From Moniliella sp. 'wahieum' (taxonomy: Eukaryota > Basidiomycota > Moniliellomycetes > Moniliellales > Moniliellaceae): DNA of 64,000 bases. Positions 3,797 to 62,680 of the stretch are shown here, piece after piece (position 1 is the stretch's first letter; every line of letters starts with the position of its first letter). A program made the translations under genes and the position numbers. Where the stretch lies: positions 1 through 64,000 of the forward strand of contig RSEE01000096.1 in the NCBI GenBank assembly GCA_003971905.1. Direction: 5' to 3'. A model generated the notes under the pieces. It had not been told where the DNA came from and made no database searches. It worked only from the letters and a program-made list of their open reading frames with translations.

Positions 3797-4651
3797 TCAG
3801 TGGGCGCGAATGGGGATGGAGAAGACACGCACGGTCCAGGTCAAGGGGTGCTGTTGGAGCACTAGTTTGGGCGTCATGTGTAGCAGCGTGTGGTCATCGA
3901 GGCGAGAGAGCGCGGCTAACACCTCCTCGCGCCAGCCCAGCGGCGCGCCCCTGGCCAGTGCGGGCAGGCAGGGGCAGGCGTCGGCGTGGGCAGTGTAGGT
4001 GCGGATGGTCCACCCGCGGGCGGGGGATCGTCGGGGGCGGCAGCGGTGGCGGGGGCGGGGGCGACGATGTGCGGGAGGACGAGGAGGAGGAAGGGGCAGT
4101 CGTGTATGCGGCAGGTAAAGGCGGTCTGGATGGGACCGACGTGGGCGGAGGGCTGGTAGAGAGGGCCCAGGCCGGTGCGGGAATGCGTCGCGTGGCGCTT
4201 TGGCAGTGGCGTGGGTGCAGATTTGCTCGTTGGGGGCGTTGCAGGGCGCTCCGACGCATCCTCCGGCGCATCCCCCGGCGCAACCGCCCACTCGCCCTTC
4301 TCCGACGAGGTGGAGGTCGCCTCCGGCGCAGAAGACGACGCGGACGCTGCGGCCCACTCGAGGTTCAACTCGGCAAAGCTGGCCAGATGCGGGGGCGAAG
4401 AACGGAGCCAGCAATCTTGTTGGCGGCAAACTGCTGCTGCACCACCCTCCCCACCGCCATCTCCCGCGTCGGGTACACCGTCCCATCCGAAGTCCACGTC
4501 CACGCCACCTCCATCGCCGTCGCCGTCGCCATCGCCATCGCCATCGCCATCGCCATCGCCAGGAAACAAGCAACGGCAGCGGACACGAGACAGCAAGCAC
4601 CGCTCGGGACGCACGCGTCACGTGACGTGTCATATGGCGGTCGCGTGTCAC
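3797..4651 (-). CDS. Hypothetical protein with CPFLLL cysteine module (upstream)
   Basis: Minus-strand reading segments encode a Gly/Asp repeat (from a GCCATC hexamer tract at 4511-4560), a segment TVYPTREMAVGRVVQQQFAA, and a cysteine motif TAFTCRIHDCPFLLL. The last segment, ending near 3797, contains SRLDDHTLLHMTPKLVLQ. The cysteine motif matches TFTCVTPGCPFLLL in the downstream neighbour, and TVYPTREMAVGRVV aligns with its SYEAALAYV region. A GTGCGT donor near 3836 and a TCTCCAG acceptor near 3760 could join this exon to the downstream module in one gene. The frames are inconsistent. Function is unknown. Confidence 0.3.
   Translation of the reverse strand: MTRDRHMTRHVTRASRAVLAVSCPLPLLVSWRWRWRWRWRWRRRRRWRWRGRGLRMGRCTRRGRWRWGGWCSSSLPPTRLLAPFFAPASGQLCRVEPRVGRSVRVVFCAGGDLHLVGEGRVGGCAGGCAGGCVGAPCNAPNEQICTHATAKAPRDAFPHRPGPSLPALRPRRSHPDRLYLPHTRLPLPPPRPPAHRRPRPRHRCRPRRSPARGWTIRTYTAHADACPCLPALARGAPLGWREEVLAALSRLDDHTLLHMTPKLVLQQHPLTWTVRVFSIPIRAH
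4511..4560. repeat. GCCATC/GCCGTC hexamer microsatellite
   Basis: About eight tandem CGCCAT/CGCCGT hexamers. On the minus strand they read as Gly-Asp or Trp-Arg runs, depending on frame. Confidence 0.85.
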
Positions 4652-5129
4652 ATGTCACATGTCAGAGACTGGGGTCCGTGCGCCGATGGCAAATGTCAAA
4701 TTGCTGTCAAGCGGCAGCAGAGCAAGCCCCAATTGACTCCTCCTGTCCTACCGCCTTCTGCCCCGACACGATTCCACCATCTGGTACGCTTCCCGGGGTT
4801 CCCCGTCGCAATGAGGGTCAAATAGCGTGGCATACCCGACCGGGTTTCCATGGCTGGAGGAGAGATTTTGCTTTTCTCCCCCCACGCACTTGTCCCATCA
4901 TTGCGCTCCTAGCCCAAGGATGTGTGACGGGCGAACGCTGGCAGGCCGGCCAGCGGTGCGCGCCGATCCCCTTTTAGTCACCCCAAGCCCTTGTATTCGT
5001 GTGAGCGAACGTTGACAGGCGGTCCAACGGAGCTTGTACCCTCCCCAAGTCCCAGAAGAAGCGAGAATTGGTCGGCGGGCCAGCAGCGCCTCTACCCCCT
5101 CCGTTCCCTTGCTCCCAAGATGGCTTTGC

Positions 5130-5290
5130 CTCGCACCCCCGACGAACGAAGGAAGGAGGGGCGTGCGAAGGAGAAGAGACTGTGGCTCGCAATCCCGACG
5201 CTCGAAGGAAAGTGGGGCATGTGAGCAAGAATCCGTTTGGATGGCATGCCCAACGCTCGAAGGAAGGAGGGGCGTGCCGAGTATCCAAGT
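5130..5290. repeat. Degenerate tandem repeat, about 56-bp unit
   Basis: Three imperfect copies of a unit containing CGAAGGAAGGAGGGGCGTGC, at about 5146, 5201 and 5256. The middle copy reads GAAAGTGGGGCATG. Confidence 0.65.
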
Positions 5291-6165
5291 GCCCAGTCCC
5301 CGTTCCAAGTTTGGTCCCTCCCCACTGTTGGAAGAGAGGGAAGCCGTTCCTTTAAGCATAAGGACACGCTTGGTGCAGAGGAGCATGATGTCACGGGCCA
5401 AGGCGGGATGGCAAGCCCGGCGGCGCCTATGTGCGTCCCTTGCCTTCCTAACCCCGTCCCCAGGTTGGCCAGTGTAGCGGATCCGACCTGATCCAATCTC
5501 CAAGCTAAGGCACGTCTGCTCAATCTGATCAAAGAGCTCGCTCCCAAGTTTAGTCCAGCTCCATCGTGGCTGGCTCGACCGCCAGCGCGATATTGGTGAG
5601 TCTCCTTCGTCTCTTTGTGGTTCTCTGTGATACATGTGATGATTCTGGAGCTAATTGCCTGTCAAAGGTTCATCTTGCTTAGACTACAATCGTGTTGTGA
5701 TGCACTGGGGGTGTTGTTCGACGGATGGGTTTAGTGGGTTGTCAAGAAGCGCTGGGCGGCGGTGCTCCAATCCCAGTGGAACGTGTACGTGCAGCGCGGA
5801 GACGCGGCAAAGGGGGCCAACGTTGGAACTGAGATCTTCGATCCTTGTGTCACCGGGAACACCGACTGGCGGGGTCCGGGAGTAGCATTTGAGCTGGAGC
5901 CGGTAGGGGGGGTTGAGGCATGAAGTTGAAGGGATATAACGAGCACAATGACATCCGTTGCTTGTCCCCTCTCCTCCATCTTTTGGCTTCAATTACCCCC
6001 TGACTCCTACACGGCTTCGTGCCATCTCGACTTTGCTTCCCTCTCTGCCCTCGTCTTGACTCCCGGTGCTTCTCTCTGCCATAGACTGTATTTGCCGCCA
6101 GTCCAACTGCCTGGCCCACCGCAACAGACGACCGACTATATCCCCTCCATCGGCCTGAAAAGGCA

Positions 6166-6316
6166 ATTAGAAGGGAGAGCGGCCGAGAGACAGCGGCCCA
6201 GAAAGCGGCTGAGAGACAGCGGCCAAAAAAAGCGGCCGAGTGACAACAGCGGCCAAAAAGCGGCGCCGGGAGCGGCCGGGAGCGGCCGGGAGCGGCCGAG
6301 GGAGCGGCGCAACAGG
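6166..6316. repeat. GCGGCC-rich tandem repeat
   Basis: Repeated AGCGGCC words separated by short A-rich or GA-rich spacers, ending in four tight copies of GGGAGCGGCC. Low-complexity, apparently noncoding. Confidence 0.7.
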
Positions 6317-7157
6317 CGGCGCCGCCTTGTGGGGACGGCACACGCGCCCCAGCCGCTCTGCCGCTGCGCTGCTCTGCGCCACAGTGCCCGAATGGGTTCT
6401 ACCGACGAGGCACGGGGGCAGCGGGCGCTCAACGCCCGTTGCGCCCTCCCGCGCCGGAGATACCGACGGGATGGGTGACCGGTGACCGGTGACGGTGACG
6501 TTTACCATCGATCACTGATCACACTGTCACCCCTGAGGCTGAGGCCAGGCTCGTGACGCGTGAGAGCGCGTGAGCAGTGGGAGTATGCACGAGTACGCCC
6601 GCTGCGAGTTGCCAGCTGCTGGGAGCGCAACCGGGTGACCGCCCCCAACATGGTGGCGACCCATCGCCCTCCCCACACGAGGCCGGCGGCAAAGCAGGCC
6701 ACGCAGGGGCCCTGCCCCTGGTATACTTGTAGCGCACCAAGTCCGACCGCGTTGCCTTGTACCGGATGCCGGTAGCCACAGGCACCGACTAATCGACAGT
6801 CGCTCAGCAGCAGATCGAAGCCATGTATCTTTACCTACAGCCTCGCGCCTATGCCCTCGCTGCCTCCATCGCGTATCCACGTTGGTCCAGCACGCCATCA
6901 CCCACCACCTGAAACCACAGATCAGATCACCGCCGGCTGCCGAGATGCCAGCACACAGCATAACCTTTTTCGCCTCGTCGCCCACTTGTTTCCACCGGCC
7001 GCAACCGCACCTCCCACGATCGCGTTCTGGCAGCTATAATGGCTAGCACACACGCCACTCCTCTCTCCCTGCTCCCCCACCATCCCTCCTATCCCTAGGC
7101 CGTCACCCCCAGCGTCTCGCCGTTCCCGCCTCCCTTCCGCCGCCGCCGTCAGCCTCC

Positions 7158-9395: not shown

Positions 9396-9585
9396 TCCAT
9401 CCCTCCCTCACTCCCTCCGTCCATTCATCTATCTCATCGGTGCTCGGATCGGGTTCCCTTTTTTGTTTTCTTGCTGGTCTTCTGGAGGTCTCTTGCTAGA
9501 CGTGTTCTCTGTAACATGTAACACAGCTGTGCTCCACCGTACATTCCATTCATGTTGATCTTGTGCTCATCCCTTTAGCTTCATT

Positions 9586-9802: not shown

Positions 9803-12247
9803 AGCTCAACACATTGCCTGCTTGGCCCACGTGCGTTGCGTCTGCGGTCAGTATTCCTTCATTGTGATGTGTGATGATGTATCATGCATGATGATGATCG
9901 GCCTACAGAAGAGGCGGACCGGCCTGAGCCCAATTGAACCGATTGACCGTTGGCTGGTTGACGCGTTGACGTTGAACACATGAGACTCAGTAGGGGCCAT
10001 CTCCATCTGACTGTGCGGTCAGTTGGTCACCCGGTCAGGGCACAACATGGGGTTGAACGGTACATTACCCGTTACGTATTGCTGAAAGATACCCAGCATA
10101 TACCCTGCATATAGACAGGTCATATGTTAGTGTTAACGTACTGAGTATTACTGAGTATTACTGAGTACCGGGTGGGAAAAAGTCATCGAGGGCATATCCA
10201 ACCTAGGGGAGAAGGCGGTGGCGCTCTATCTCTCGGTACATTGGTATAATAATAGAAGTCACTCTGGACCCAAAACAGAAAGGATTAAACCGGTGCAGAG
10301 TGGTCTGTGGCACGGTTGACTTGTTCTGAAACGACTACTAAACGGGTGCTGGCAGGATTGGGAAGGGCCCGTGCGTTGGCCGATATTACGCATGGTGTGA
10401 GCAGATACACTATACCTTCTTGATGGAAGGCGAGGGGAAAAAGCACAGTATGCTCTTTACCCATGTCTGCATCTCGAAGGAAGAAGCGTGTTCTCGTGAC
10501 GAGTTAGTTGTTGCTGTATACGCGCCCCACTTTGTCTTGGCTGTGGCTTTGGCGTTTCTTATACCATTACTTGCATAGGCTGTAATCCCCATATCAACAA
10601 AAAAGGAACCATGCGGGAACACACCCAGTACTCTGGGGGGGTCCAAATGGACAGGAGGAGCCTTGTATACCCCTTGTGCTGGAAGTCCGCTTCTCTTGTG
10701 ATTAATGATTATCGATTATGGAGGAGGGATGCACCCTTTTGTCCTTTCCCTCTCCTCAGGACTCAGGCCTCAGGATAGACAGAGCAGTATACCTAGTGTG
10801 GTCACCGGTCATTCGGGAGACTAGGAGTATACGACAGGGGCACCGAGCGCGTCTGACACCGCGAAACATTGTCACAAACTCGACAGGCAGCGTGGGAAGA
10901 GGCTGAGAGCAACAAGTATTATACCTGAGAACCTGGCTCGCCTCCGCCCCATGCTGCATGTGCATGATGCATGACTCATGAAGCACATGAAGATGTATAG
11001 GTGCTGAGTTGTCTCAGTGTCACACCCTACGGCACATAACCACGTGCTCTGGGCTTGACGAGCTTGACGGACGACAGGGGCCGCGGTCCCTCAGAACCGG
11101 ATCCGACTCTCAGGACAAAGCGTCATCGTCCAGGGTCGTCGGAGTTTGTCCTTTTAGGCAGAAGGGAGCGACGGGGCGGGGAAGCCTCCGGACATTTACA
11201 GACAGCTATGCGGCTGTGTGCCGGAGCGGATCCGCTGCCCGGATGAAAATCGAGGGTCTGTCGTCTGTGGCGTCGATGGAGCGGAGGGAATGTGAAAAAG
11301 GATGACCAACGCGCTTTATTCTGAGACCGTCCGTGGTCAGCAATGAGTAATGAGACTCTTCATCTCCAGGTATGCCGCATTTCATAGACCTCTCATCTTC
11401 GACTCAGTATTTCCCCGGCCTTTCATCTCATCGAGGCTCGTTAGAATAGTAAAACAGTCTGGGGACTATAAACGTGGGACGCCGCGGATTTCCGCCGCAG
11501 CGCCAGAACCGCTTGAACTTAACGTTACGACGGAAGCTTAGCAAGCATTTTGTGCCCAGTGTTGCGAGAGCAATGTATCAACTGTTGATCCTGACTGGCC
11601 TGCGTTCCCAGTCTCTTCGAACTGCGTCAAACTAGCGTAGTACCAGTGTCCTTCAAAACTCGGACCGCGCTTCTTCCTTCACCCGTGCCTCTAGTTCTTC
11701 ATCTGCTGCACCTGCTTTTATGTCTTCCCGTTTCGTAGAGCTCTACTCATCGGTCTGATCTTCGGCTCAAGATATGTATTCTGATCGTGGAGCTCTCATT
11801 TCTTAACCCATTTTTGTATCGTATAGAGTTCTTAGGCCTCTTATTTCTCATCGACGTAGGTACTATATATAGCCCTGATGGGGGGAGGGGGAGAGTTGCT
11901 GGTAGGAAAAACATCCCCACCATCCCTTTGTCACCGTGCAACCCTTCTCAAAACCCATATGTTGGTTCCTCTATTTTTTACCACCATCAAGCCCTACGAC
12001 GGGCACCGACGGTGAGCCCATGATACTCTACCGCCCCGAAGGCGAACTCACGTATCATTGCCTCACCCTCGACGTAATATAGCGGGACGGACGAGTGGCT
12101 CGGGTGGGTACGTTCGAACTGGTTGCAATGTGCAGGGTCCAAGCCACCTCCTCTACCACTCCTTCTCATTGCATCCTGGTGCGTCCTAATTGCCATGACG
12201 TTTACCTCCACGAGCAAATGGTTTCCAACCCGGAAGGAACAACTTCT

Positions 12248-12275
12248 AGCTTCAAGCTTCAAGCTTCATCGATTA
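12248..12275. repeat. AGCT/TCGA heptad array
   Basis: Words AGCT, AGCT, AGCT and TCGA, separated by TCA, in 7-base register. Confidence 0.9.
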
Positions 12276-12694
12276 TCTCTCATACTGTAACACGAAACAT
12301 GCGCTGCATCGAGGTGTCACTTTCCTTGACAGGAAACTACAGTTGAGTTGAGTTGCAAACTCAAGTCATTTCTTGTTCGTGCAGCTTCCGCGCTCTTTCC
12401 TGCTGCCACGAGAGTAGGTGATGGGCGTGGCGTTACACGCCAGATACAGATGCCGTAGGACCTGTAAAACGCGTCAAACTCCATCATGTCACATGTCAGC
12501 CCCGCCATCTCCATCGGCACCGACTACTACCACCACACGCGTGTTGATGGGTTGTGTCTCGTCAAGATAACTTGTGACAGTGCTTCGACGTTCCCACGAC
12601 AGCATCGGATCGGCCTTTAAGCTTTTACCCCACCGACCTTGGCAACAGTCGGATAATGCCGTCAAGATAACCTGTTTTTTTCAAATACATTTCC

Positions 12695-12727: not shown

Positions 12728-12757
12728 TGGATGCAGAAGAGAGAGAGGATTCAATGG

Positions 12758-12781
12758 TGACCGGTGACCGGTGAGATCTGA
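12758..12781. repeat. Mixed CCGG/GATC heptad array
   Basis: Four TGA triplets in 7-base register, separated by CCGG, CCGG and GATC. Confidence 0.9.
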
Positions 12782-13216
12782 GATGCAGAGAGAGCGAAAG
12801 AAAGGCTGCGCTATTGTAGCGAGGAATAGGACCAGGGGCTACGGTACAAAACACGACGTACAATGTGGGTGTGGGGGTTACATATACGGTGGAAGTCATA
12901 GTGCATATATTGATAGCAAACCTCTAGGACTGTAGTGCGATGAAGGCAGAAACCGTAACAGTATATGGCTGGGGCAGGCGATCAGGGCCTACTCAACACA
13001 TCGCCCACCCTGCCGCCACCCGCCCCCCCCCGCCACCGTTAATAAAAAGCACCCGTGCCCCGCCGTCCAGATCTGATCAAACCCCACCAACCTCCCCCTC
13101 CCTCCCTTCCCCTGTTGCATACCCCCCCACAGAGAGAGCGTGGTCTCTCTACCCAAGCCTCTTTTCACCGACCCCTTCCATTCCTCCCGCCGCCCCTCAC
13201 AGTCTGCACAAACCTG

Positions 13217-20455: not shown

Positions 20456-21324
20456 AATAAAGGAGCGAAAGACGGCTGCGCCATTGCAGCGGAGCGAGAG
20501 ATAATCCCCGATATGAGGAGGATACGATGTGGCCGCAAAAGCATTCATGATGTGGGGCTAGGGAGTCCAAATATTCACAGCCCTATAGGGAGGATCGAGG
20601 CGCGGAGAATGAGAATACTGGACGCGGAGTAGCGTCACAGCCGCCAAAGCGTCACCCGCGGTGGCGAGAGGGGGTGAGAGTAGAAAGAGGGGAAGTCTCA
20701 CCAGGGCCTGTTGTGCCAACTGCAACCAGGCCGCGGCACGAGGTCGGTATGAAGAGGATACTCTCCCCATCCTGGCGAGCGGGCATGAGATCTGAGAGGA
20801 TAAGTACTGATGAATAACCCAGAGGATTTTGTATAGAAAACCTGGGATTGAGGAAGGCTTGGCACTGGCAATTTACGGCAATGGGGGGTGGTGGGTGCGT
20901 CATGCCCTCCTCATGCCACACCTTATGTATATACAGGGGCTATAATAGTGCCATGTGGGCGTGGGATACTTATGTATGTCGCTAGTCAAATTGGACAAAA
21001 GATTGATAGCAAAAAGAGGACTGTACCGCGAAAGAGGGCGACATGCATGATGGCATGCAATGACAGAGAGAGTCCAACAGTATATGGCTGGAGCAATGGA
21101 TCAAGGTCTACTCACCTCGCTCACCTTGCCACCACCCGCCGCCATGCCACTGTTAATTAAAGCACCGTTGCCACCAACCAGATCCTGAGACCAAACCCCA
21201 CCAACGTATCCCGCCCCCCTCCCGTGCTGTTCACGCGCTTACGACAGAGAGAAGCTCGGTCTCTCTTCCGAAGCCCATATTGCACAATCGCTTTTCCATC
21301 CCCCGGCCGCCGCACACATTCAGC

Positions 21325-21722: not shown

Positions 21723-23569
21723 GTGCCAGCCACCTCCAAGAACACTTTGATGCTTTTGCGTATCCGGACACCATGCAAGTTCCACATACGTCCCCTGATG
21801 GCACTCTTTTCTCATCGTCTTCCTTTTTACTTTCCTCGGCTTCCTCAGTGATCGCTTCTTTTCCCGTCGCCACTGCATAACTGCGCTTAGGGCGTCGCTG
21901 GGGAACCAGGATCATCGATCATTATGATTCATCTAGTATAACGCGAACGACATTCACTGTCACGGGGCGATGCACAGCACAGTCACCGGAAATAACCCGT
22001 TGGCGCCGCCGCTGCTTATCGTTCGCTCTTGGCTTCTAATCGGTTCGATGGCCGATGTTTCGCGTTTGCGGATCGACGGGAGCTATCAGCCGCGTGGTCT
22101 CCAACAGACCACAGTTAGGCCGCTTGCCTATTGTACAACCTGTGGGCCTTTGCCTGCCTATATAAAGACCCGCTCTGTACTAGGAATGCATAGAGGCAAG
22201 CGACCAATCGTCTTGTCCTACGTCCACCCTCAGCGCCACCTTCTCCAGGACTCAGCTTAGGAACGCTATCGCTAGGAAGGCAGAGGGGAGGACATCCCTT
22301 GGGTACGAAGCTCGTGCTTCGGGCCTGCAACTGGTCCCCTTGCCTGGCGAGCCAGAAGGCCGGCCCCTTGTGCCCCCGTCGGGCGAGGTTGTCACCGCCC
22401 GGGAGGCCACACCGTTACATCCACGTACAAGCGTAAGGAGGCGATGAGATGGAATCAGAAGGTGGAGCATCTTCCCGTCTGTGCGCAGTGGATGTGTGTC
22501 TCCTGAAGAGCGATGGCTTACAGATGACGTCGACGACGTCTCTTATATGTATATCTCCTCTCAGATCTCAGATCTCGTCCTCAGAGCCACTTTAGTATGT
22601 AGGCACGTAACTCTCTGTATAATTACCTGTTGGGTTCTGTCTTCCTTTCTCTTACTGTGTCTCGGGCCCTTGTCCTGTCAATCTCGCATTAATTAGAGTA
22701 AATAGGCATCAATTCCTGTTTTTCGTAAGAACCACCATTTCGTGCGCACCGCCATCGCGTCTTGGAAAGAGTCGAGCAGTGCGTGATCTCCCCCCGTCCG
22801 GCAGTTGATGGCTCCCAACGGGCATACTTTCTCATCGATCATCCCCCTCCTCTTCCCTCATCATTCTCCCTCATCCCCGTCGGTCCCTCTCATCTCGCAT
22901 CTCTCTCATATCCACCCCACGCTACACTGCATCAAATTAAATGATTGAACCTTCGCTTCAAAGAAGGTGGAGATGCATAGTAGACCGTACAGTTGAGGCG
23001 TCGTATCGATATCGTATAGGCTTCTGAGTGTTGTATTGTCCAAGAGAATGGAAAGGTAGGTAGTCTATCGCCGTACCGGTAACGAAAAAAGAAAAAGAAA
23101 CGGGCAACAAGGCGTAGTCGTGGCCTTTTGGTACCTTGGGTGGTACACAGTAGTAGGCCGGCTAGGCGCGATCCCCAGATTCAGCACGACCAGACGCAAC
23201 ACAACTGGGTAAATGCGAATACAGTATGCCTAGGGGACGATGCGTACCCGAGAGAGGCAGATGAAACGAGGTTGAGGTCCGTCTTATAGGCAGAGAGAGG
23301 CCCGTGATGCGTGACGCGGCCGGGTATACTTCGCCAAAAAAAAAGAAACCTCCCGTCGCCATCCCCACACGGCCCGTTGCTTCCTTCCTTCTCCGCTTGC
23401 CCCGACAGACCCCCACAGTAGGTGAGTGCGACCAAAGGCATCGTTCCGCAGGAAGAAGCACTGCTCAGGGCGGAGCAGAACAGAAAGGAGACGGAAAGAG
23501 AAGGTCACCCCACGAAGGACAGAGCAGGAGCACAGCGCTCTATCACCGGATCACCACGAGGTCAGTTGT
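21723..23569. other. Intergenic region
   Basis: No gene was supported. A GATC-type 7-base array lies at 22561-22577, and a TATATAAAG promoter-like box near 22160 has no clear gene behind it. Confidence 0.45.
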
Positions 23570-24463: not shown

Positions 24464-25846
24464 GGTTGTGATGGGACTCTATAAACAAGAGGAGCAAAAG
24501 TAAGGACAGCAGGAACAAGTAGGAACGACGGGAGTACGTAGCGGCTAGGACAGGAGCGACGGCCGGTGAGGTCACCGGTGAGCAGTTCGCTCTGCGAGAC
24601 CATGACGTCGGTTGCCACGGGAGTCCGCCGGCCCACGTGGGTTAGTAAAACGCTGCGCGGGCAGCTCTTGCGTCGTGGACTTCGCGCCCGCACACGCTCG
24701 CCGGGTGTCGTGGGCAGCAGACCAGACGATACGAGGGGTCGCCTGTAAAGAAGAATGGAATGGGGTGGTGCGGAGAGGACGGAGTGGTGGTCGCCCCACA
24801 GGAGGGACAAAGAGAAGGACCGCAAGGGGGAGGTCGCGCGCTCGCGCGAGCTGCCCGCTGCGCCCCCAGTGCAATATGGGGCCCACTGCGCCAGCTGGGC
24901 AAGCTATCTATCTACGTCACACAGCCTGTCGCTCGTGCGGTGGCTGCGGTGGCGTTCCACTCAGTACTCATGGCACCTTCAAGCTTCAAGCTTCACGCGT
25001 CACGCGTCACGAGCCCCTGTTAGCGGACCTGTGCAGTGACGCCATCCTGGATACACGAGCCGAAGTACGCTGTATGACCGTGACACGCGCGTGACAGCCA
25101 ATCAGACAGACAGACACAGAGGGTGAACCAGATTCTCGAGCAGCACCTTCGTTGCTACCTGTGGATGCGCAGCAGTCTAACTGCGTTGATCTTCTCTAGG
25201 CCGTAGCTCGGAAGGCGAGTGTCGCAGCCCAGATGCGGTATCGGACCTACGCTACGGAGATCAGCATCGCACCGAGGCCGACTCCTTTCATGTTGGTCAA
25301 CATGGTTTGGTCCGTCGCGGTGGCGGTACCTGCCTGCTGCCTCTTGTTTCCCTCTTGTTTCCTCCCACGAAGAATGGTCTTGCCATTTCCCCTGCCTCTG
25401 ACAGCACCTTGGTCTCCCTTGTCTAGCCCCGACGGTTTCATCCAAGAGAATCCGGCTACATGCTTGGTGTCAGTAATCCACCCTCTTCTCGAACGTCGCC
25501 GTTCCGCAGCCGTCAGATAGACGCCACGTGTGAGTGGGGGGAGGTAGAACACAGATCAGATTTCCAAAAGACATCATATACAAAGGCAACATTTTCTTCA
25601 CGGGTACACTAATCATCGGTACATACATTCTTGGCAAAGCCTTTACTCTCGCCCACACATCATTCATGTGCCGTGTGTGCGGGGAGGGAGATCAAGACGC
25701 CAATCGTCCCTTGGGGAATTCGCACATCCCGATGCACGAGCCCACGCGTGCACAGTACAAAGCAAGAAACCGAACGGGAGTGCAAGACCCGACTTCTTTT
25801 CTTGCTTCTCGGTTGGGGGGGTCTCGCACCACTAACGGTGACCTTA
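24464..25846. other. Intergenic region
   Basis: No gene was supported. A mixed AGCT/CGCG 7-base array lies at 24979-25009. Confidence 0.45.
24979..25009. repeat. Mixed AGCT/CGCG heptad array
   Basis: Five TCA triplets in 7-base register, separated by AGCT, AGCT, CGCG and CGCG. Confidence 0.9.
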
Positions 25847-27622: not shown

Positions 27623-28241
27623 GCGGCTGATTGAGGTGGAGTCGGGTTGGAGTGGTGGACGTACGCGCCCCCCACGCGGGAGATAGTGGTGGGGAGGTGA
27701 GAGGCGGTACAATAATAATAGGCAAACGCAGGCCCCCTTGGCTGCGCCACGAGAGACCAAAGGGGGACGGAGAGGAGGGGCAGTGGTGGTGGGGGGGAGG
27801 AGGAGGCGGGGGCAACTCGCCGGAGCGATTGGATCTGCTCCATCGGGCAGGCAGTGTGCGGGTGGATAATGGGTGCGCCTGTCGATCTATCTATCTATCT
27901 ACTGCTGGGATCTCATGTGCCTACCCCGCACTCTCCTTTTCCGGCAAGAGCCAGCGCGAGTGTGCCCAGCGCGACGCATCATGCATCAGACATCATGCAT
28001 CGCCCATCCTGCCCCAGGCGACGCATCGTGGTTCCGCCTCTTGGCGGAATAGGTGCCGGCACTGCTTACCTCACGCCCGCCACGCCCCCCCTAATGGCTG
28101 CTGCTGCTGCTGGATTGTGGTTGGGCGTGCGTGCCATCACCACCGCCACCGTTTCTGCTGTTGCTTGCGTGTTGCCTGCCTGTGCCTGCCCCCGCAGTGC
28201 GCCTACTGTCTCCGTTTCTTGGTTCCTTGGCAGCGTCCCCA

Positions 28242-30225
<1,984 letters not shown>

Positions 30226-32132: not shown

Positions 32133-32175
32133 TTTCATTGACAGAGCTTAAGGCGGGACAGGGGGAACGCTACGT
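32133..32175 (-). repeat. Dispersed short element, copy 3 (inverted)
   Basis: The reverse complement of this stretch matches copy 2 over about 43 bases with a few changes, including the CGTAGCGTT left part that is missing from copy 1. No homeodomain-like sequence follows it. Confidence 0.75.
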
Positions 32176-38996: not shown

Positions 38997-40067
38997 GCTG
39001 AGGTTGGCCCGCCGGGGGGGGGTGGTTGTGGGTGGTGCACAAGCATATCACAAGGGGAGGGGGAGAAGACCCGCAAGGTGATATTGGTGGTGGTGGTGGT
39101 GGTGGTGGGAATGGCAGTGGTGGTGATGGCGTTTTTCGTCGCCGTGGCGGCCCCGAAGAGAAAAAGCGGGAGGGCAGACGTGCTGATCTGGGTGGCAATA
39201 GGCGTGCCAGTTGTCAGTTTCCGTAAGTACTAAGTGGTCGCTGTCGGTACCCGCCCACTGGGCTACCTACTGCGTGGCGGACCAAACCCAATGGGATATG
39301 TGGAGCGAGCGCCGAGCGTCGCAAGCGATCCCACGCTGAGCCGTGCGGGCGAGCAGACGTGCACACTGCCCCCGTAGCTACGCCCCCACCTGCTCGCACG
39401 CTCGCTCGCACAACCACTCGCCCCGTGCCTGCTTCTGCACTCGCACGCTCTGCCTCGTCCCGGCCCCTGCAGCGTCGCGGTACACTGTGCCCGTGCGTCT
39501 GCTGGGCTGCAGTCATCGATCACCGATTGCCAGCCGCCGATCTCCGCTCGCCCTTAAAGCTTCACGCTTGTTACGCCGCAGAACGTAGGATGCAACTGCG
39601 GACGGCGCAGTGCTTCTGCCCCCTTGTGCCCTTTGTAGGCTAGTTGCTAAAGGGCTCCACATGTACTGGACTGAGTTACTGATGGATTGGCCAATGATCA
39701 ATGGTCGATGGGTCATGGTCCCCTGCCGATTGATCGCTCCGACGCTCCGATCTTTCAGATGGCCTCATTAATCATTCAACCCACCACTGCAGCGCAGGAA
39801 ATGTGGGAGGAAGCTGGTCTGGATAGTACTAGGATTGGCGCGATGCCACCATTGCGCTTAGCAACTCATGGCTCCATCTGAGGATTCGGTACTCGCTACT
39901 GAGCTCAGTACTCATCCTCAGTTGAACGTTGAGTGCTCATTAATCATTGCCATTTCCGGTCCCGGTTACCGATTGAGCCCTCCCTCAAGGTTGAAGGTTG
40001 AAGCTCGAAGACCGGACAGGACTGGTGGATGGGTATGGCAGGGCGACGCAAGGCACGCATGCATACA

Positions 40068-45387: not shown

Positions 45388-45493
45388 GGTGGCGACTGCT
45401 ACGACTCCAGGTGGTGGGAAGGAGGGGAGAAGGATGAGGTAGGTATCTTTATGTGTGGTAACTTCGACAAATTGCAAGGATACGTAGAAGGGA

Positions 45494-45517
45494 TGATCGA
45501 TGATCGATGAAGCTTGA
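45494..45517. repeat. TCGA/AGCT heptad array near FTR1
   Basis: Four TGA triplets in 7-base register, separated by TCGA, TCGA and AGCT, about 110 bases upstream of the FTR1 start codon. Confidence 0.9.
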
Positions 45518-46622
45518 AGGGAAGCAGGGGACCGACACGGCGAGAGAGAGAGCTCGTTGACGTGCTGACGAAGGACAGGGTGTGTGAGATACCGGGTCCA
45601 GGCACACGGAGTTGGGATTGCTGTTGTGCAGCATGTCGATGGGTACCAAGCACAGGAGGAGAGAAGCTGTTAGAACACTGTTCTTGCGGCTTGCCCTGAA
45701 AGAAGCGAGAGTGGCGGTATGTTGGTCGACGGGCGGAGGATGTCGTTCTAGCCCATATGTCACTTGCTCCCTACATCTGGGGCAGATGCAAGGAGGAGGT
45801 GCCGAGTCAGCTTATTGCGGTTTCGCACACGCACTGGCACGCCTACCCATCAATCAGATTGGCCATCCTGCCTCCCCCACATCTCTTCGTTTCATCTTCT
45901 CATCGATCACCGATCATCCTCACCTCCGAACTGAACGAGCCGGCGGGCTAAGCCAAGTGAGTGAGTGAAGTGCTGGTGAGCCAGGGGCCCTACTCAAGAA
46001 AGCTCTCATCCGCTCGTCGGGACCCGCGGATGAGATCGACCTTGCTGATGCTGCAGATAGCCATACGCCTTCCGCCTTCATCCATATGCGCGCATCACAC
46101 AACACATCAGTCCCAGAGGGTCATGGATTTTTTTCCTTCGGGTAGCTGCGTGAAAAAGAATTCTTTCTCGTCCCCTCCCTCGACGATAGTCCAGCTAGTC
46201 CACATGCAGTCAACACACTCCTGCTGTTGCCTTGGCCGCTTCCAGTCTTGCATCGTGTCTCGGCTCTGCGCTCCACATGGCCATGGAAGTTTTTTTGCTG
46301 CCTACTAGACCAAATTTCGTCTGGCCCCGCCTTGGGTGGGGTCTCTTGGCCCTCCGTCCGGCTCCGCCACACAATAAGAGGGGCTGTGTGGCCATCCCTA
46401 CTGCGCGGGTGCAAACAGTGTGTGCTTCAACTTCATTAGTCTCCAAGCTTCAGTAATCATTAACTTTGCTCGTTTAATTCGTCCTCACTGGATGAGCCCC
46501 ATGCGCTCTTCCGAAAAAAAAAAAAAATGCCCAGATGTGCATCTGATTAAAATGCGCACACATCACACACATCACACCAATCACACCGGCTGCCAAGCCA
46601 GAGTGGCGCGGTGCGTGTCCAT

Positions 46623-46631: not shown

Positions 46632-47736
46632 CTGCTATCGCTTCATCGATCATCACTCGCACTCGCCCACCGCGAGCCCCGGGCAGCTGGTCTCTGTGAT
46701 TAATGGTTGGCTACGTTTGCTGCTCGTCACTAGTGCTGTCCTCGGCCAGCACCGCCCCACTCTCCTCTCTGGCACCCGTGCTGCCCCATTCGGATGCGCC
46801 ATCAGATCTCAGATCTCTGATGTGCTATGGTCGATGATCGATGCGCCTCCGATTAACGCACTCGATTGCCAATGCGAGGCGCCCCGAGAGAAAGAGAGGA
46901 GACGAGACGGTCCCACAGCCTCTTTTCGAGCGTCCGAAAAGCGGTTTGTGAGTACACCAAGTGCACTTGTGCACAAGCGCAGCGGCGGTATTTCTGTTTT
47001 CAGGCGCTGTTCCTTGGTGTGAACAAGGGTCGCTCGGGTGCTACAGGAGGTGTTCATGTTATGCAACCACAACGGAGGGTGCGGGGAAGACACGGAAAGT
47101 CGCGGAAGAGGAAGAGCGCCGGGAATCCCCAATCACGCTGTCCCTGGTGGGTGTGTTTGATCCAATACGGGCACATGTGGCAAGGCCCAAGGGCGACAAA
47201 GAATAACAGCGCAGAGCCCCCCCCCCATGCCATACTACCGCCTGGGTGTTCTCCTCAACACGACGGATGGGTAAGTTTCAGAATATGGACCGGTTACTTG
47301 ATCCGATCGTTGTTTCGTCCATACCCCATAGTGGTTCCGCGGGAACCCCGTCCCCACCAGACGCCCGACAGTCGAATCATTTGACACTTTTTTTTGTTCT
47401 ACCGCCAACAGCGCAACTCTTTGCATCGTACTCAGTTGAGTACTCACTACTCACTACTCGCGGAGCCATGCACACGACATGTGACAGGTGCCGGTGCCTG
47501 AGCCAGAACCAGGCAAGGGACTTGTGCCCAGGTGCGTTGGTCATGTTCGGATGCACGCTGATCAATTATTCATGGATTAAGTTAAGGTGCGACGACGACA
47601 GCAGCTGTCAGTATTTTGTCTGCAGGCCAGTAAAAGTATAACTCTACCGCTCCTGGAAGCAGCTGTCTTTCTTCTCCTCTCCCTCACCTGCTCTCCCCCT
47701 CACCCCTTCCCCCTCCCGGTACGTTTTGTTCGCAGA

Positions 47737-49844: not shown

Positions 49845-52678
49845 TAACGGCGCATAAAGTAACCTAATATTATATGCACACAATGTGCTTTTGTGGGATA
49901 CCACACACACATGTCTTCGTGTCGGCAAGTGGACTGGTTGGTTTGTTGAGTGGATTTGACGACCCCATTCCTTAGTACCTGCCTCGTTCTCTTTTCTATG
50001 CCTTGGGTCTAAGATGCGAGTAGAATATAATGGTTCAAAGCAAACTGTAGCCTTTGTGATCCAAAATGAACTTCTCCCACTTCCCATTTCATTGGGAGAG
50101 AGATGGCCGCTGGAAAGTGACGCCGCGCGGGGTCGGTGGGTCTTACGACACAACGGTGTTCTATATCTACAGAGTGACAAGCTCAATAAGGAAATGCCTT
50201 ATGCAGTAGTAAGTAATAGATTCACAGTAAGCGGTATATATACGTCGTATTCCTCCATAGGGTCATAGAGAAACAAGAGCAGCCAACAACTGACCCGTAT
50301 ATATATCTTTTGTTCAACGGCTGTGGTGCAGGGCGTATCCAGGGAGACAGGATGTGACGGCTAATGCGAGCGCCAAAAGGGACTGCGGAGGTACATCGGG
50401 AGGTGCACGGTGGCAGCCATGTGGCTTTTGCTGTCCCTCTCTCATATTTGATGGACACAATGGATTCGTTAGTAGAGGTTGTTGACATCCGCCCGAGAAA
50501 ACCGTGCGGACCCTCAGTTGTGTCAGTTAGTTTTTTCCTTCCTTCCAAGCCCGCACCAGTGTACTGGACAATTCAGTCGCACATGCTTCTTCGTCCCCAA
50601 TACGGAGTTCAGTGCTCACAATCACAGTGGTAGTATAGCGAACCCGACAGACTTACCTTATTCATATCTGCTCATCCCTGAGCTGGCCAAAACTACACCA
50701 ACAACCATGGGCGCTAAGGTTAATACTGATCTCCCTTGTCAACGACACTATGATCATGATGGTGAACAAGCGCGACCGCTGGACGCCAGCCTGCAACCCG
50801 CCACACCGCCTCCACCCCTCATTGATTCCGACGGTAAGGCTCACAAAAGGCGATCGTTATCGAAGCGCACGTGTGGTGTAAGAAGACGGGTTCGATCTTT
50901 AGTTTTAAAGGCCGACAGAAGCGATGGTAGAGGTGATGGCGGAGGTGAGGCCTCAGCCTGAGGTCTGACGCTCAGGTGTAATGTCTAAGGAGACATGGCT
51001 ATAGGAAAAGGAAACGATGGAGACGAATGGCAGCAAGGGAATATTTATAGCTAAGAGCTCGATCATGCATCAAAAGCTTCAAGATTGCATCATACACGGC
51101 CGGTAACCGGAGTGTCCATAGAAAAGGCGCAACTGAAACAACCGCCGATCCTCGGTTTCGATCAAATGATCGGAATGGCGATGCTAGCGCGTAGGCCGTA
51201 GGCCCTAAGCGGTAAGACTTAGCGCCACCTTACAGCTTAGTTGCTAATGCGCTGCCGATTCACAACGTTGACATGGACATGTCCACATGTCATGCATCAT
51301 GCATCGTGTAACATGCGACAGTAGTCTTTCCCTGCCTTGCTACAGTAGGCAGTGGAAGGAGGAGCCTTATTGCATGAGACTGAAGACTGAAAAAGCTTCA
51401 CAGGGCCGTCGGGGTCCTGCAAGCTGCATTGGGCACTAAGGCTTAGTCCTAAGGTGGGGCCACTGCGTCGAGGAATCCTTATCGTATCCAGCTCATGCAT
51501 CATGCATGTGTTCTCAATTTCACTCTTCATATTCCTAGTCGCCTTTACAACGCGATGCATGGTAAGGAGGACACGAAACGCCTGTGCGCAAAACCGATTC
51601 CAGAGGACGTAACAGACGTAACCGCAGTGGGTTCTTGAGCACGTGAGCTCGAACCAGGTCGCGGCGGCCTATAAGCGCTTCGGTCTCTCAGGAGCACTTT
51701 CAGCAATCTCAGAACGTACCAACATCTCAGCCTTTTGAGCGTACTTTCTCAATCTCAATATTCTACTGTGCGTTCAACAACACACAGATGTGTACGTTCA
51801 ACTAACGTTTATCGCCACGTTCTCACAACAGAACAAAAATCCAACTCGCACTTGAATATACTAGTACTACTTAATGCCAGCCAGTACATGTCGTGTCGAC
51901 GGGGGGCGGTTGTACGTTGAACGTACGTGTTGAACGATGAACGTTGTCGACAAAATTAATGAGATCGTTGAGAGAGGCAAGGGCAAAACATGTAACGCGC
52001 AACGCCTCATCAATGTCAGAAAGCGTACTAGTTTTACGCTCACAATACCGGCCATACCCCAAATTTGGCTTCTGTAAAAGGGTCACTGTCGTCATGCTTC
52101 ATGACGGTCCACGCCGGCCAAGCTTCGAGCTTCAAGCTACTATTCAGGCTATAGTCATTGTAGTTAACCAAGCTTCAAGCGTCGCGTGCCAAAGGCTAGC
52201 GTCAATATAAGTGTGTCCTACAGCGGAGGGTTGAACGGTGGTCAGAGAAAAGTCGGACTCTCAGATCTCAGCCGAGATAAGGAGCATGTGTTGCATGCTG
52301 TGCATGTCAATGCATGATGCATGGTCATTCGATCATGAACAAGCAGCTAAAAACACACATTTCTTGGTCCTCTCTGGCATCTCTAGTCTGTCTAGTCCGT
52401 ATAGCATTCGCAGAAGTTGGGCAGCGAAAGAAAAATGCTGTTGAACATGCTTTTGCGCCTCAAGCATCATTTAATCATTAGTCGTTGTTGTTGTGCAACA
52501 TAAGTACCAAGTAGCCACGCGCGATCGATGGAGGGAAGGATTGCAGCCTACCGGCTAAAAAGGTCTAAAAGGTCTTATATTTAGCACCCTAAGGCCCTAG
52601 AGCCTATAAGCTCTAATCGAAAATTGCTTATCGAATAAAGTACCCCCTCGACTCTCTGCTCAGTTTTCCCCGCGCACT

Positions 52679-52720: not shown

Positions 52721-52975
52721 GCGCTGTGTGGGGAGAGTATACCGGTACTGTATATGTACGAGGAGCGGCAGTGTGCGGTCTGGTGCGACTGGGGACCGGT
52801 CTCTAAGTACTGGTAGGATAGTTGCATGAGTTGCTGTTTAAAGCTTAAAGCTTGAAGAGTCCCCAGTTGTGCGTTACATGTGTTACATGTTTTTATTCCA
52901 GAGCCACATCGGATGTCGGAGGTTGTTTGGCCGGCGTTGTTACATGTTATATGCTTCCGCGCGGCACACGGCTGC

Positions 52976-53003
52976 TTAGGCCTTAGGCCTTAGGTCTTAG
53001 GCC
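52976..53003. repeat. TTA-GGCC heptad array
   Basis: Four heptads of TTA plus GGCC, with one word changed to GGTC. Confidence 0.85.
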
Positions 53004-53048
53004 GCTAGCACCACAGACAAGACAAGCGGGCAGCTCAAGCGCTCAAGC

Positions 53049-53134
53049 TCAAGCTTCAAGCTTCAAGCTTCAAGCTTCAAGCTTCAAGCTTCAAGCTTCA
53101 AGAAGGCCTGAGGCCTGACCGGCCTGACCGGCGA
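53049..53134. repeat. TCA-AGCT heptad array with GGCC/CCGG extension
   Basis: Seven perfect copies of the heptad TCA+AGCT (53049-53100), followed at 53105 by TGA-spaced GGCC, GGCC and CCGG words. Confidence 0.9.
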
Positions 53135-59228: not shown

Positions 59229-59966
59229 GGCGGTGGAGGTGGGCCGAGCGGAGATAGCTGATGCGTGTCGATACCGTGTCGCGCAGGCACGGTTCGGTCG
59301 GGGACTCTTCTGACAGGAAAAGGGAGCTGTGATAAGGCCATAAGGGGGGGCTGGGTGCACGTGATTGCCAGGGTGATGTGCTGGGCCAAGGAGAGAGGCG
59401 ATGGATCCCCAACGGGGACGTGTGGGAGGGGATGTGCGCATGTGATGAGGGGGTGATGCCGCAGCGCTTGCGTGGGGGAGGGGTAATGGGTGATGCGGGT
59501 GCGCAATGGGTGACAGGCGCATGGTTGCATGCTGGCCCTGCAGGGGGGCGGCAGCCGGGGGGTGCGGGCACGGGGCGAGTGGAGACGTGGCGCGGGCGGC
59601 GGGGGGGGGGGCGTGCGGCGGGCGGGCTGAGCACTGGCGCCGTGCCCGTCGCCGCCGCGCCAGCACAGGTGCGGCAGGCAGCGGCCACACGGGCGCCGTG
59701 CCAGCGGCGCGGCGGGTGCACGGCGGCGGTGTGGGCCGGGCCGGGGGCACACACGGGCGTGCTGCGCGGGGGGGCTGGGGCGCTGGGGCGGCGGCGGGCG
59801 CTGCGTCGCTGCTTCGCTGCTTCGCCCCTCCATCCCACCGGCCTGCTTTGGGACACGCCGGCGTGTCCAGTGCGCTCCTCGTCCTTCTCTCGGCCGTCTG
59901 TGTCGTCTCTGCCGCCACCACCGCCACCGCCACCTCCACCTCCACCCCTCCTCTGCGCTGGCCGCC
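59229..59966. promoter_or_regulatory. Divergent promoter between the GNAT gene and VTS1
   Basis: Very GC-rich stretch with G runs and a CCACCGCCACCTCCACC pyrimidine-rich tract just before the VTS1 start. Long reading frames cross it on both strands, but these follow from high GC content. Confidence 0.45.
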
Positions 59967-62177
59967 ATGAGCAGCCCCCCCGCCCCTCGGCTCGGCCCCC
60001 ATCGGCCGCACCGCCTCCCCGCGCCCCCCAGCGCCTCCCAGCCCGCGCCCCGCCAGCCCCGCCGCCCCGCGCACCGGCCTCCCCTCCCGCCCCGCCCCGC
60101 ACCAGCCCGACCTCGCCCGCCGCTCCTACGGCGCCGCCAGCCCCAGCCCCAACCCCAACTCCAGCTCCGCCCACTCCCAACCCCGCCGCCACCGCCCCCG
60201 CCGCCACCTCCACTGCGGCCCCTGCCGCCCAGGCCGCCTCCAACTGGCGCTCCTCCTCCATCATGGGCTCTGCTGCGCCCATGGCCAACCAGCGCATCGC
60301 CCGCGCGGCCACACCTCCCTCCTCGCCTCGCCCCTCACTGGGGTTTGGCGGGGGCCTCGGCGGCGCCACCTCCCACTCCTCCTCTCCCGGGCTTTGGTGC
60401 CTCGCCCCAGCCCCAGCGGCCCGGCACGGTGGGCGGCATGCCGGCCGGCGCGCACCTTAGCTTGTCGGCGCATGGCACGCCGGCCGACCAGAGCGGAACG
60501 ATGGACCGTTGGTTTGAAGATCTGCAGAACTACGAGCATACGCTCGAGGAGATGGCCGCTGCCTCGCTCGATGCCAACTTTAAGGAAGAACTGGGTGCGA
60601 TTGAGCAGTGGTTCCGTGTCTTGTCGGAGGCGGAGCGTACCGCGGCGCTGTATAGCTTGCTCCAAGAGTCGACCCAAGTCCAGATTCGTTTCTTTATCAC
60701 GGTGCTGCAGCAGATGGCGCGCACGGACCCGGTCCATGCCCTCCTCTCGCCCGTCACGGGCTCGCACAATGGCGTCAACTCCATGATGGCTGAACAACTC
60801 GAAGCCAAGATGTCCTCCCTCGGCTTGGCCCCGCCCACGTCCCAGCCGCCCCAGGGGGGCAAGTCTTACCGTTCCCCTGCGCTCGACGGCAGTGCCGCTC
60901 TGAGCAGGCCGCACGACTCAAAGCCAACGTACCTCGGCCCCGGAACACCTTGCCCACTTCACCTTCCCGGTGGCAACACCACAGGCACGCGTTTGCGCTA
61001 GCCGCTGGACGAGTATCGGAAGGCATTGCGTCGCGGCCCGAGCGCGGCCTACGACGCTCGGTGCGCCGGCTGGCAGCCAGTCCCGCTCTCTATTCCGGGC
61101 AGCGGTCCGACCAGCCCGCCGCCCGACGAAGGTGTCGTTGCCGCGTCGGGTCGCACCCGGCTTCGCGGTCGCGTCCGCGCGCCCGGCCTCGGGCGAGGCG
61201 CCCCTCGCGCCTGCTACACACGACTACCCCTCCGACCCGGCTGCGGACTGGGAGACGATGCGGCGGTGCTGCAGCAGGCCAGTTGGCCGCGCAGCTCCAA
61301 GCGCAGGGAGGACTGTACGACCCTGCGCAAGCTGCGGACCTACTGCGATGCGGGTGCAGCAGCCTTGTTGGCCAGTCCCTTGGCTGCCCTTGGCTCGCCC
61401 AACCCGGCTGTCGGTGGCCTTTCGACCGCCGCATTGCGGGCCTGCAGTCCCCTCGGGAGGGCTGGGAAACCCAGCCAACTTGCAGGCGATGAATGCGCTG
61501 GCCGGGCTTGGCGCCGGCTTGTCCCCGCCGCAACTGATTGCGTTGCAGAGAACCTCCTGGCACAAATCGCCGTGACCAACGGGCAGTTTGCCGGGTGCGC
61601 CGCCGCAGGGTTTGTCGCCCACTTGGGCGTGGGTGCGCTTGCCCAGCACGGGAGCCTACTCGGCCGCTGGGTCGCGCCAGGCTTCACGCCAATTCCACGG
61701 TGCCGGCTTGAACGTGGCAGCGGCGAATGCGGGTGTAGGTGGCGAGGGGGGGTAGGTGGAGGAGTCGGGCGTGGAGGTGTGAAATCGCCACGGCAAGTGC
61801 GTCGGTCGCCTGGACCTGTGCGACGTGCTCACTAGCCTGCCCCGCGTCCGCATACGCCACACACGAGGACGAAGTGCTGACCTGAGCGTGCTGGAAGATA
61901 CAGCGGCGTGGTTACGCCAGTTACGCCTGCACAAGTATACGAGTAACTTTGCTTCGAGCGAGTGGCCGCGATATGGTCGTTATGGACGATGCGGCGTTAC
62001 AGGCCATGGGCGTTGCTGCGCTCGGCGCGACGCAAGATGCTCAAAACGTTTGATGCGGTGCGCAAACGGTACGGTATCCCCGACCCGCCGTCGATCAAGG
62101 CTGAAAAGGCCGTGCGAAGGAAAAGGAAGCTGCGGGCGTGCCTCCCGTCCCGCGTTGCCTACCCGCAACCAGAGTGA
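59967..62177 (+). CDS. VTS1: SAM-domain RNA-binding regulator Vts1
   Basis: Post-transcriptional regulator of the Smaug family. It binds RNA hairpins and recruits the deadenylation machinery. The start at 59967 gives MSSPPAPRLGP and a long Pro-rich region. The conserved N-terminal block begins at 60501 with MDRWFEDLQNYEHTLEEMAA and goes on to IEQWFRVLSEAERTAALYSL and FFITVLQQMARTDP, as in other fungal Vts1 proteins. The C-terminal SAM domain has DTAAWLRQLRLHKYTSNF, then in another frame MDDAALQAMGVAALGARRKM and LKTFDAVRKRYGIPDPPSIK. The middle (about 60900-61850) is Ser/Pro/Gly-rich and crosses several frames. The stop is at 62177. Confidence 0.85.
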
Positions 62178-62638
62178 GCAGATCCACGCCCGTCGGCGCT
62201 CTTGCCCAGTGGGTTTGGGTTTGCGTTTGCCTTTGTCTGCCCCGGTAGGCGGTTGAGTCGGGTCCAGTGAAAGTGCAAGCGCTGGTGGGGCTAGGGACTG
62301 GGGACTGTGGTGGATTGGTGCATGGCGCATGGCGCATGGCGCAGATGCGCAGCTGCCGGGTCGCTAGTCTCTAGTCTCTAGTCACTCTACTCTCTCGTCA
62401 CTATGCTACGTTTTGTCCCTGTTATTGGTGGTGGTGGTGGTGGTGGGGATGGAGTGGCGGGAGATGGAGCATAGATCGATAGGGATAAGCCTTGGTAGGC
62501 ACCAGGATAGCTGCTTGTGCAGTGGAATCGTAAATGTCCCTGTCGAATGTGCTGCGAATGGCGAATGGCGGCGACGCCCCGTTGGGGCACGGATGCGCCG
62601 ATCGGCGCAGGGTACCGGTCACGTGGGTGTGCTGGGCG

Positions 62639-62680
62639 TGACGCGTGACGTGCGACGCGTGACATGGATATCACATGTCA
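62639..62680. repeat. CGCG/CATG heptad array upstream of TUP1
   Basis: Heptads with words CGCG, CGTG, CGCG and CATG spaced by TGA, TGA, CGA and TGA, then a separate TCA-CATG-TCA eight bases on. It lies about 230 bases before the TUP1 start. Confidence 0.85.

Follow-up and report, generated by a model that had tools for sequence, protein, structure and literature searches.

At the coding joints of V(D)J recombination, hairpin opening about 2 nt from the tip gives rise to short palindromic additions; this reaction is programmed in lymphocytes and, differing in this from the arrays described below, proceeds without a 7-bp duplication. For the hAT element Ac/Ds in Candida albicans, palindromic P-nucleotide insertions, hairpins and end joining have been described and PSO2 has been discussed as a hairpin-cleaving factor; the available text of that study lists 28 footprint types among 128 revertants, the two main ones (35 and 18 clones) being distinguished by a single base at the fusion site (PMC5873905). 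The target duplications of hAT elements, according to the accessible part of another report, are usually 8 bp long, with 5-7 bp in named subgroups, including hAT7, which is named for its 7 bp (PMC12730594). In this work, we analyze a 64-kb stretch of the basidiomycete Moniliella sp. 'wahieum' (contig RSEE01000096.1, positions 1 to 64,000; hereafter, the window), in which many short arrays repeat the trimer TNA every 7 bp around palindromic four-base words. We consider it likely that these arrays are excision scars of a cut-and-paste element that makes 7-bp NNTNANN target duplications, the donor ends having been closed as hairpins, opened about 2 nt from the tip and joined by end joining.

The genome assembly (G000) comprises 69.5 Mb in 223 contigs, with the window on contig C96. 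Of 29 hits obtained for DUF3759 homologues, those with an organism name come mostly from Agaricomycetes, plus one from Mucoromycota, which marks the genome as fungal. The sample consisted of the window and 25 stretches of 10 kb (20 regularly spaced on contigs C1-C3 and five on C5, C8, C11, C14 and C16), that is, 314 kb or about 0.45% of the genome; the survey of periods 4-15 covered the window and 20 stretches (264 kb). Loci L001-L008, selected for GATC arrays, and L034, selected for a transposase, were excluded from all rates. Low-complexity units were removed before the period, run-length, flank-word, 7-mer-repeat, insert and locus counts; identical stretches were entered once when inserts between 7-mer copies were counted, and overlapping matches within one array were counted singly in genome-wide string counts.

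A first-pass annotation of the window had noticed arrays of TCA or TGA recurring every 7 bases, and the arrays it cited were recovered where it placed them, give or take a few bases. Three details differ: the final unit is TCG, not TCA, at 22561-22577 and at 51290-51306; at 51914-51924 the word ACGT stands on either side of one TGA, which is not a TNA-word-TNA arrangement; and the word at 20257, palindromic as claimed, has flanks that do not match it. The word is palindromic in 66 of the 126 TSA-N4-TSA sites of the window, compared with means of 58 sites and 3.5 palindromic ones (maximum 12) in 200 dinucleotide shuffles, and in 254 of the 495 sites of the 25 other stretches, compared with 227 and 14.3 in 40 shuffles. 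The palindromic fraction is about one half, far above the share of about 16/256 that the annotation had named as speaking against a special status of these words. Across the whole genome, TCAGATCTCAGATC was matched 419 times and a 21-base array of three TGCA units 483 times, neither having any match when reversed; a permuted non-palindromic word was matched 9 times, and its reversal 7 times. A search of the window against Rfam yielded no RNA family match at gathering scores.

Self-complementarity of the repeated unit is in strong excess only at period 7, where it was found in 145 of 355 runs (55.8 expected from shuffled units) and in 50 of the 76 runs with at least 10 matching positions. The excess is mild at period 4 (385 observed versus 314.1 expected), and there is little or none at periods 5 (309 versus 300.9), 6 (31 versus 31.6) and 8-15 (at most 2 each, with 2 versus 0.2 at period 11). 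T..A forms the inner pair of 133 among the 145 self-complementary period-7 runs. TNA-to-TNA spacing peaks at 7 bp (1.95-fold, versus 1.20, 0.97 and 1.01 for the A.T, C.G and G.C trimers at that distance), and TNA-centred 7-mers are repeated at 0 bp 121 times, arrays included, versus 24, 34 and 46 times for 7-mers centred on ANT, CNG and GNC.

The spacing and the self-complementarity are fixed, as had been proposed, but the word is not free to vary, its sequence being determined by the two bases that adjoin the TNA. The core of an array is [XXTNA][X'X'][XXTNA], or the reverse complement of this, where X'X' is the reverse complement of XX and the word is X'X'+XX. With L and R denoting the dinucleotides outside the two TNAs, and rc the reverse complement, a left-derived word is rc(L)+L and a right-derived word is R+rc(R). 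Among 611 same-centre TNA-N4-TNA sites, 343 carry a palindromic word; 198 sites fit rc(L)+L, 193 fit R+rc(R) and 104 fit both, with 2.4 expected for each, so that either flank explains 287 of the 343 palindromic words. Matches in nine control configurations did not exceed 35, or 6 where the word was non-palindromic. Non-palindromic words accompany a plain 7-bp duplication at 17 of the 611 sites (2.4 expected) and the two one-base P types at 7 and 5 sites. Exact matches to the core, called scars below in keeping with the proposed origin, number 57 in the window versus 0.24 in 200 shuffles (maximum 2) and 230 in the 25 other stretches versus 1.1, and make up 225 loci in the 314 kb, where about one site is expected.

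The lengths of the exact runs point to the same structure, stepping at 5, 12 and 19 matching positions, that is, 5+7k. At 5 positions, 68 of 86 runs are bounded exactly as XXTNA..XXTNA (29) or TNAYY..TNAYY (39), and the same boundaries hold for 15 of 20 runs at 12 positions and 2 of 2 at 19; taken together with the flank match, this phasing means that the arrays are XXTNA copies with rc(XX) between them, or the mirror image of this arrangement. A 5-bp duplication (NTNAN) is ruled out, as both outer bases are present in the middle copy, and so is a 3-bp duplication of TNA, for which the P bases would come from TNA and not from XX. Where 10 of the 16 possible palindromic words had been counted, 15 of the 16 possible outer dinucleotides actually occur; CT and CA are over-used (1.84 and 1.66), and TT, TA and AT are nearly absent (0, 1 and 1 versus 11.1, 7.9 and 9.8 expected).

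A smaller set of NNTNANN copies is separated by 1-6 bp, and the inserted bases are often of P type, that is, complements of the adjoining 7-mer ends. For inserts of 1, 2, 3, 4, 5 and 6 bp, P-type cases amount to 18 of 26, 27 of 39, 5 of 10, 4 of 14, 2 of 12 and 3 of 12, with 11.2, 7.0, 0.7, 0.2, 0.1 and 0.0 expected. Seven control centres show at most a mild excess, with 5 of 13 versus 2.1 for ANT and 9 of 34 versus 5.5 for GNG, both at 2 bp, 11 of 18 versus 8.5 for CNC at 1 bp and 2 of 15 versus 0.9 for GNG at 3 bp.

Single-unit chains, which are far more common than longer ones, comprise 62 of the left and 59 of the right type, the two being equally common. Mixed chains are those with at least three TNAs and both word types; in 8 of 8 such chains, the left-derived words precede the right-derived ones. 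Seven of these belong to the 26-sequence set (LR twice, LLR twice, LLRR once and two with one extra mutated unit), and the eighth, the LLR chain of L034, is the sole mixed chain among nine further loci. This order is expected from repeated events at one site, each word being templated by the nearer flank. The duplication, the flank dependence, the word order and the P-nucleotide-like inserts can all be read directly in the DNA. The scars and chains of the window, including its three ordered mixed chains (12756-12783, 24977-25011 and 45492-45519), are as follows.

4646..4666 (+), two-unit chain, TG-TCA-CATG-TCA-CATG-TCA-GA, rc(L)+L with L = TG
6474..6494 (+), two-unit chain, GG-TGA-CCGG-TGA-CCGG-TGA-CG, rc(L)+L with L = GG
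6552..6565 (+), single left-derived scar, CG-TGA-CGCG-TGA-GA
9510..9523 (+), single scar at a palindromic 7-mer site, fitting both types, TG-TAA-CATG-TAA-CA
10697..10720 (+), adjacent scars in differing register, TTAA right-derived and TCGA left-derived
10761..10774 (+), single right-derived scar, AC-TCA-GGCC-TCA-GG
10963..10976 (+), single left-derived scar, CA-TGA-TGCA-TGA-CT
12250..12270 (+), left-derived two-unit chain, CT-TCA-AGCT-TCA-AGCT-TCA-TC
12487..12500 (+), single left-derived scar, TG-TCA-CATG-TCA-GC
12756..12783 (+), mixed LLR chain, GG-TGA-CCGG-TGA-CCGG-TGA-GATC-TGA-GA, L = GG and R = GA
20784..20797 (+), single right-derived scar, CA-TGA-GATC-TGA-GA
22559..22572 (+), scar at a palindromic site, TC-TCA-GATC-TCA-GA
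24977..25011 (+), mixed LLRR chain, CT-TCA-AGCT-TCA-AGCT-TCA-CGCG-TCA-CGCG-TCA-CG, where a succession of events at a single site is recorded most clearly
27977..27990 (+), single left-derived scar, CA-TCA-TGCA-TCA-GA
39763..39776 (+), single right-derived scar, CC-TCA-TTAA-TCA-TT
39921..39948 (+), two scars with starts 14 bp apart, ACGT left-derived and TTAA right-derived
45492..45519 (+), mixed LLR chain, GA-TGA-TCGA-TGA-TCGA-TGA-AGCT-TGA-AG
46641..46654 (+), single right-derived scar, CT-TCA-TCGA-TCA-TC
46800..46813 (+), right-derived scar, CA-TCA-GATC-TCA-GA
51288..51301 (+), right-derived scar, TG-TCA-TGCA-TCA-TG
51491..51504 (+), right-derived scar, GC-TCA-TGCA-TCA-TG
52259..52272 (+), left-derived scar, TC-TCA-GATC-TCA-GC
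52974..52994 (+), TTA/GGCC chain with centre base T, right-derived, then a mutated unit
53047..53102 (+), longest array of the window, TCA-AGCT repeated, probably one or more scars later lengthened by slippage
53543..53556 (+), single left-derived scar, CG-TCA-CGCG-TCA-CC
62637..62650 (+), scar at a palindromic site, CG-TGA-CGCG-TGA-CG

In the proposed mechanism, insertion at XX-TNA-YY with a 7-bp stagger would duplicate the heptamer, and upon excision both flanking ends would close as hairpins, as they do in hAT and RAG-type reactions. Nicks about 2 nt from the tip would then yield palindromic 4-nt overhangs, YYY'Y' on the left end and X'X'XX on the right end; if the ends join with their overhangs in register and the 4-bp mismatch is resolved to one strand, the product would be either XXTNA-X'X'XX-TNAYY or XXTNA-YYY'Y'-TNAYY, with a TNA every 7 bp around a palindromic word. 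The 7-bp duplication would reflect insertion with a 7-bp stagger and the complementary additions hairpin-closed donor ends, and joining in register followed by mismatch resolution would explain why the spacing is fixed at 7 bp and why left and right types are equally frequent; the hairpin chemistry, the in-register join and the transposon nature of the removed DNA are what we infer from these patterns. In a minority of scars, both copies of the duplication would survive in full, separated by 1-6 P-nucleotide-like bases. Repeated use of a site would build chains in which words taken from the left flank precede those taken from the right flank, and some long uniform arrays may have grown further through slippage. 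We therefore prefer to see in the arrays the outcome of a mutational process that leaves P-nucleotide excision scars, rather than a functional element.

A literature search found no description of such arrays among the titles and abstract openings listed, with most subscription journals outside its coverage. The statement of the first-pass annotation that no described element follows this rule nevertheless fails in kind, as hAT-type footprints with palindromic P nucleotides are known from Ac/Ds and from TcBuster, at least in the accessible portions of the respective papers (PMC5873905, PMC3499496). The process suggested by the scars works like hAT-type excision, although hAT membership is unproven. 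Compared with Ac/Ds, the duplication is 7 bp long, the P length is mostly 2, and the scars are counted in a genome and not in an assay, with no convincing resident element found in the 314 kb. TcBuster, a hAT element of the Buster type, has the target nnnTAnnn, the central T..A of which resembles that of NNTNANN, and leaves footprints of hairpin opening and end joining; it differs, as far as described in the available text, in its 8-bp duplication, compared with 7 bp and one base between T and A in the scars (PMC3499496). The hAT7 elements of rust fungi are likewise fungal DNA transposons with 7-bp target duplications, according to the part of the report that is accessible (PMC12730594), whereas no hAT domain match was obtained in the Moniliella genome. 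The proposed scar is of a known kind; its new features are a 7-bp target centred on TNA, narrow outcomes, its density, and multi-event chains with a fixed order of words.

Several observations weigh against an origin of the arrays in transposon excision. The outcomes are narrower than the hAT footprints published in the accessible text on C. albicans (PMC5873905), and 56 palindromic words among the 611 sites fit neither flank, flank mutation being an assumption. Re-use is high, with more than one unit at 44 of 225 loci; single-unit scars lie at palindromic 7-mer sites in 36 of 157 cases, versus about 1 in 16 expected, and this preference is a possible reason for re-use, yet it may not suffice on its own. 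The 314 kb yielded no convincing resident element that combines terminal inverted repeats (TIRs) with a 7-bp duplication centred on TNA: with 12-bp inverted repeats and at most 2 mismatches, none of the eight 7-bp hits was convincing, and with 8-bp repeats the 27 matches were nearly all scar arrays pairing with each other, leaving one weak candidate (L025, 2855-3394). Profile searches of the genome returned no match for PF05699 (Dimer_Tnp_hAT), PF02892 (BED) and PF14372 (hAT-like RNase H), nor for KDZ (PF18758) and Plavaka (PF18759), all five of which were also without matches in the control genomes, so that a true absence is not demonstrated for them; DDE_Tnp_4/Harbinger (PF13359) and MULE (PF10551) were likewise without matches, and here the control genomes were positive. 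A further two points concern a duplication within L028 and are given with it below.

The same profile search detected 71 matches of RVT_1 and two of Transposase_21 (EnSpm/CACTA-like), one above and one below the cut-off. A Transposase_21-like reading frame lies beside many scars in L034 (4690-5685, contig C17); this frame, the one match inspected, was rejected as a candidate, as no clear TIRs or target duplication were seen around it. An EnSpm/CACTA-like source does not fit the size of the duplication, 7 bp here versus the 2-5 bp given for the CMCT clade in the available part of its description. A regular-expression search for hAT dimerisation motifs in the sampled loci gave no match, and the repeat families obtained by self-BLAST, which are SINE-like and tRNA, showed no TNA-centred duplication by eye. 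Dispersed short repeat pieces stand side by side in L030 (2253-3239) and occur also in L009, L011, L026, L027 and the window (57867-58052, 32113-32198 and 20376-20456); apart from one longer pair they measure about 80-200 bp, some contain a B box resembling that of tRNAs, and they look like parts of SINEs.

A paralogous duplication in L028, of about 80% identity, contains two places where the copies differ by 7-bp units as predicted. In the first, copy one reads CATGATG-CATGACG-AGTGATG and copy two CATGATG-GATGATG-CATGACG-CGTGACG-AGTGATG, a net difference of 14 bp within a TNA chain; in the BLAST alignment, CATGACG versus CATGACG-CG-TGACG matches the expected right-type scar exactly, and the remaining unit is one base off the prediction. 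This alignment is not unique, and herein lies the first of the two adverse points: the CGCG unit forms its own 7-bp gap in 3 of 6 pairwise settings, and a single 14-bp gap is obtained in the other 3 and in MAFFT. In the second place, CCGTCTCACACAGG versus CCGTCCCACGCGTCACGCAGG, a 7-bp difference appears in 5 of 6 settings and fits the model after an assumed T to C change. The second adverse point is that two other 7-bp gaps in L028 are not TNA scars; the same holds for two 7-bp gaps between other pairs of repeats and for a further one within a low-quality stretch. As a possible case of a filled versus empty paralogous site in one duplication, L028 is suggestive only. Contigs C2 and C33 (L035 and L036) are identical over the 4 kb compared near their starts (2801-6800), as either a shared contig end or an assembly duplication, and hence are uninformative on empty sites.

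As to the agent, we tentatively suggest a hairpin-forming cut-and-paste element with 7-bp NNTNANN duplications, from a group outside the profiles tried, or a domesticated recombinase derived from one, that was active until recently, left about 50,000 readable scars and re-used many sites. The first rival of transposon excision does without a mobile element: a host or domesticated recombinase, RAG-like or acting in programmed breakage, would make 7-nt staggered, hairpin-closed breaks at NNTNANN. The scar chemistry would be the same, and the failure to find a convincing transposon in 314 kb or a genome match to any of seven transposase-related profiles fits such an enzyme; we regard it as unlikely, given that a full 7-bp duplication with hairpin ends is the normal result of insertion followed by excision, and that a wide non-coding scatter of about 0.7 per kb resembles insertions more than a programme. 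Marginally less probable again is hairpin-driven slippage, in which a quasi-palindromic 7-bp repeat expands like CNG triplets without any excision. The units are indeed self-complementary save for one centre base, and a few arrays, such as 53047-53102, are long and uniform, but slippage predicts neither the left/right word order nor P-type inserts between full copies; the confinement of the strong self-complementary excess to period 7, with an inner pair that is nearly always T..A, and the length steps of 5+7k in fixed phase also argue against it, as do bacterial 7-bp repeats with many non-palindromic units, in which palindromy is evidently not required. Binding sites of a protein family under selection, for which the fixed spacing and mostly non-coding location could speak, are very improbable and were rejected, as all outer dinucleotides but one of the 16 occur, chains of one unit are by far the commonest, and the word tracks the local flank, which no binding specificity predicts; that a single protein motif cannot account for the variable words had been recognized at the outset.

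The scars are clustered, with 0-18 loci per 10 kb across the 25 loci (variance 24.6 versus mean 7.4) around a density of about 0.7 per kb. They had been described as absent from coding exons; coding-like DNA is depleted about 6-fold (3.8 versus 21.7 per 1000 TNA, by a mask that is a crude codon-bias proxy), yet 6 of 225 loci lie in such DNA, which makes up about 16% of the sample. Depletion is expected because 7-bp insertions shift the frame. Grouping sites by how often they depart from the pattern (0, 1 or 2 times) gives 391, 381 and 988, compared with 0, 96 and 826 for an A..T control; the excess of 391, 285 and 162 is roughly geometric, which fits long accumulation up to the recent past and not a single burst. 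When the 225 loci of the 314-kb sample are scaled up to 69.5 Mb, the extrapolated genome total is about 50,000 scars.

If the excision origin is correct, the scars record how the host opens hairpins and joins ends, and a class of short repeats is reduced to one type of event, the sequence of which reveals the target, the duplication length, the hairpin opening and the strand choice. Should the rule hold genome-wide, thousands of natural excision repairs would be available, above the 128 revertants of C. albicans and the 140 footprints of Saccharomyces cerevisiae given in the accessible text (PMC5873905). The scars would also point to an element missed by annotation with the transposase profiles tried, and palindromic 7-bp arrays in other fungi may be mistaken for regulatory motifs or microsatellites.

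The 21-base TGCA array was also found in 36 bacterial and 2 viral contig stretches. These were rejected as instances of the same phenomenon, being ordinary 7-bp repeats with many non-palindromic units, a rough contrast given that the loci were picked by one palindromic word. In the bacterial and archaeal contigs (L037-L072, many from Nitrospirae), several distinct tandem repeats with 7-bp units are present, each spanning about 19-80 bp, and a contig often holds two or more types of unit.

Three other features of the window deserve mention. At 58695-60074 on the minus strand lies a GNAT acetyltransferase frame, for which the best 120 of 7802 matches are 55-70% identical; the organism names among the matches listed are all bacterial (Phenylobacterium, Pseudomonadota), with no fungus named, and the frame was possibly gained from bacteria. 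A multicopper oxidase exon at 34874-35857 has its closest relatives at 77% identity, named organisms otherwise being below 40%. Positions 218-560 hold about eight copies of a 40-bp tandem repeat, the inner part of which switches back and forth between TAGCTCGCTA and the reverse-complementary TAGCGAGCTA, as though a small piece had been inverted from one copy to another.

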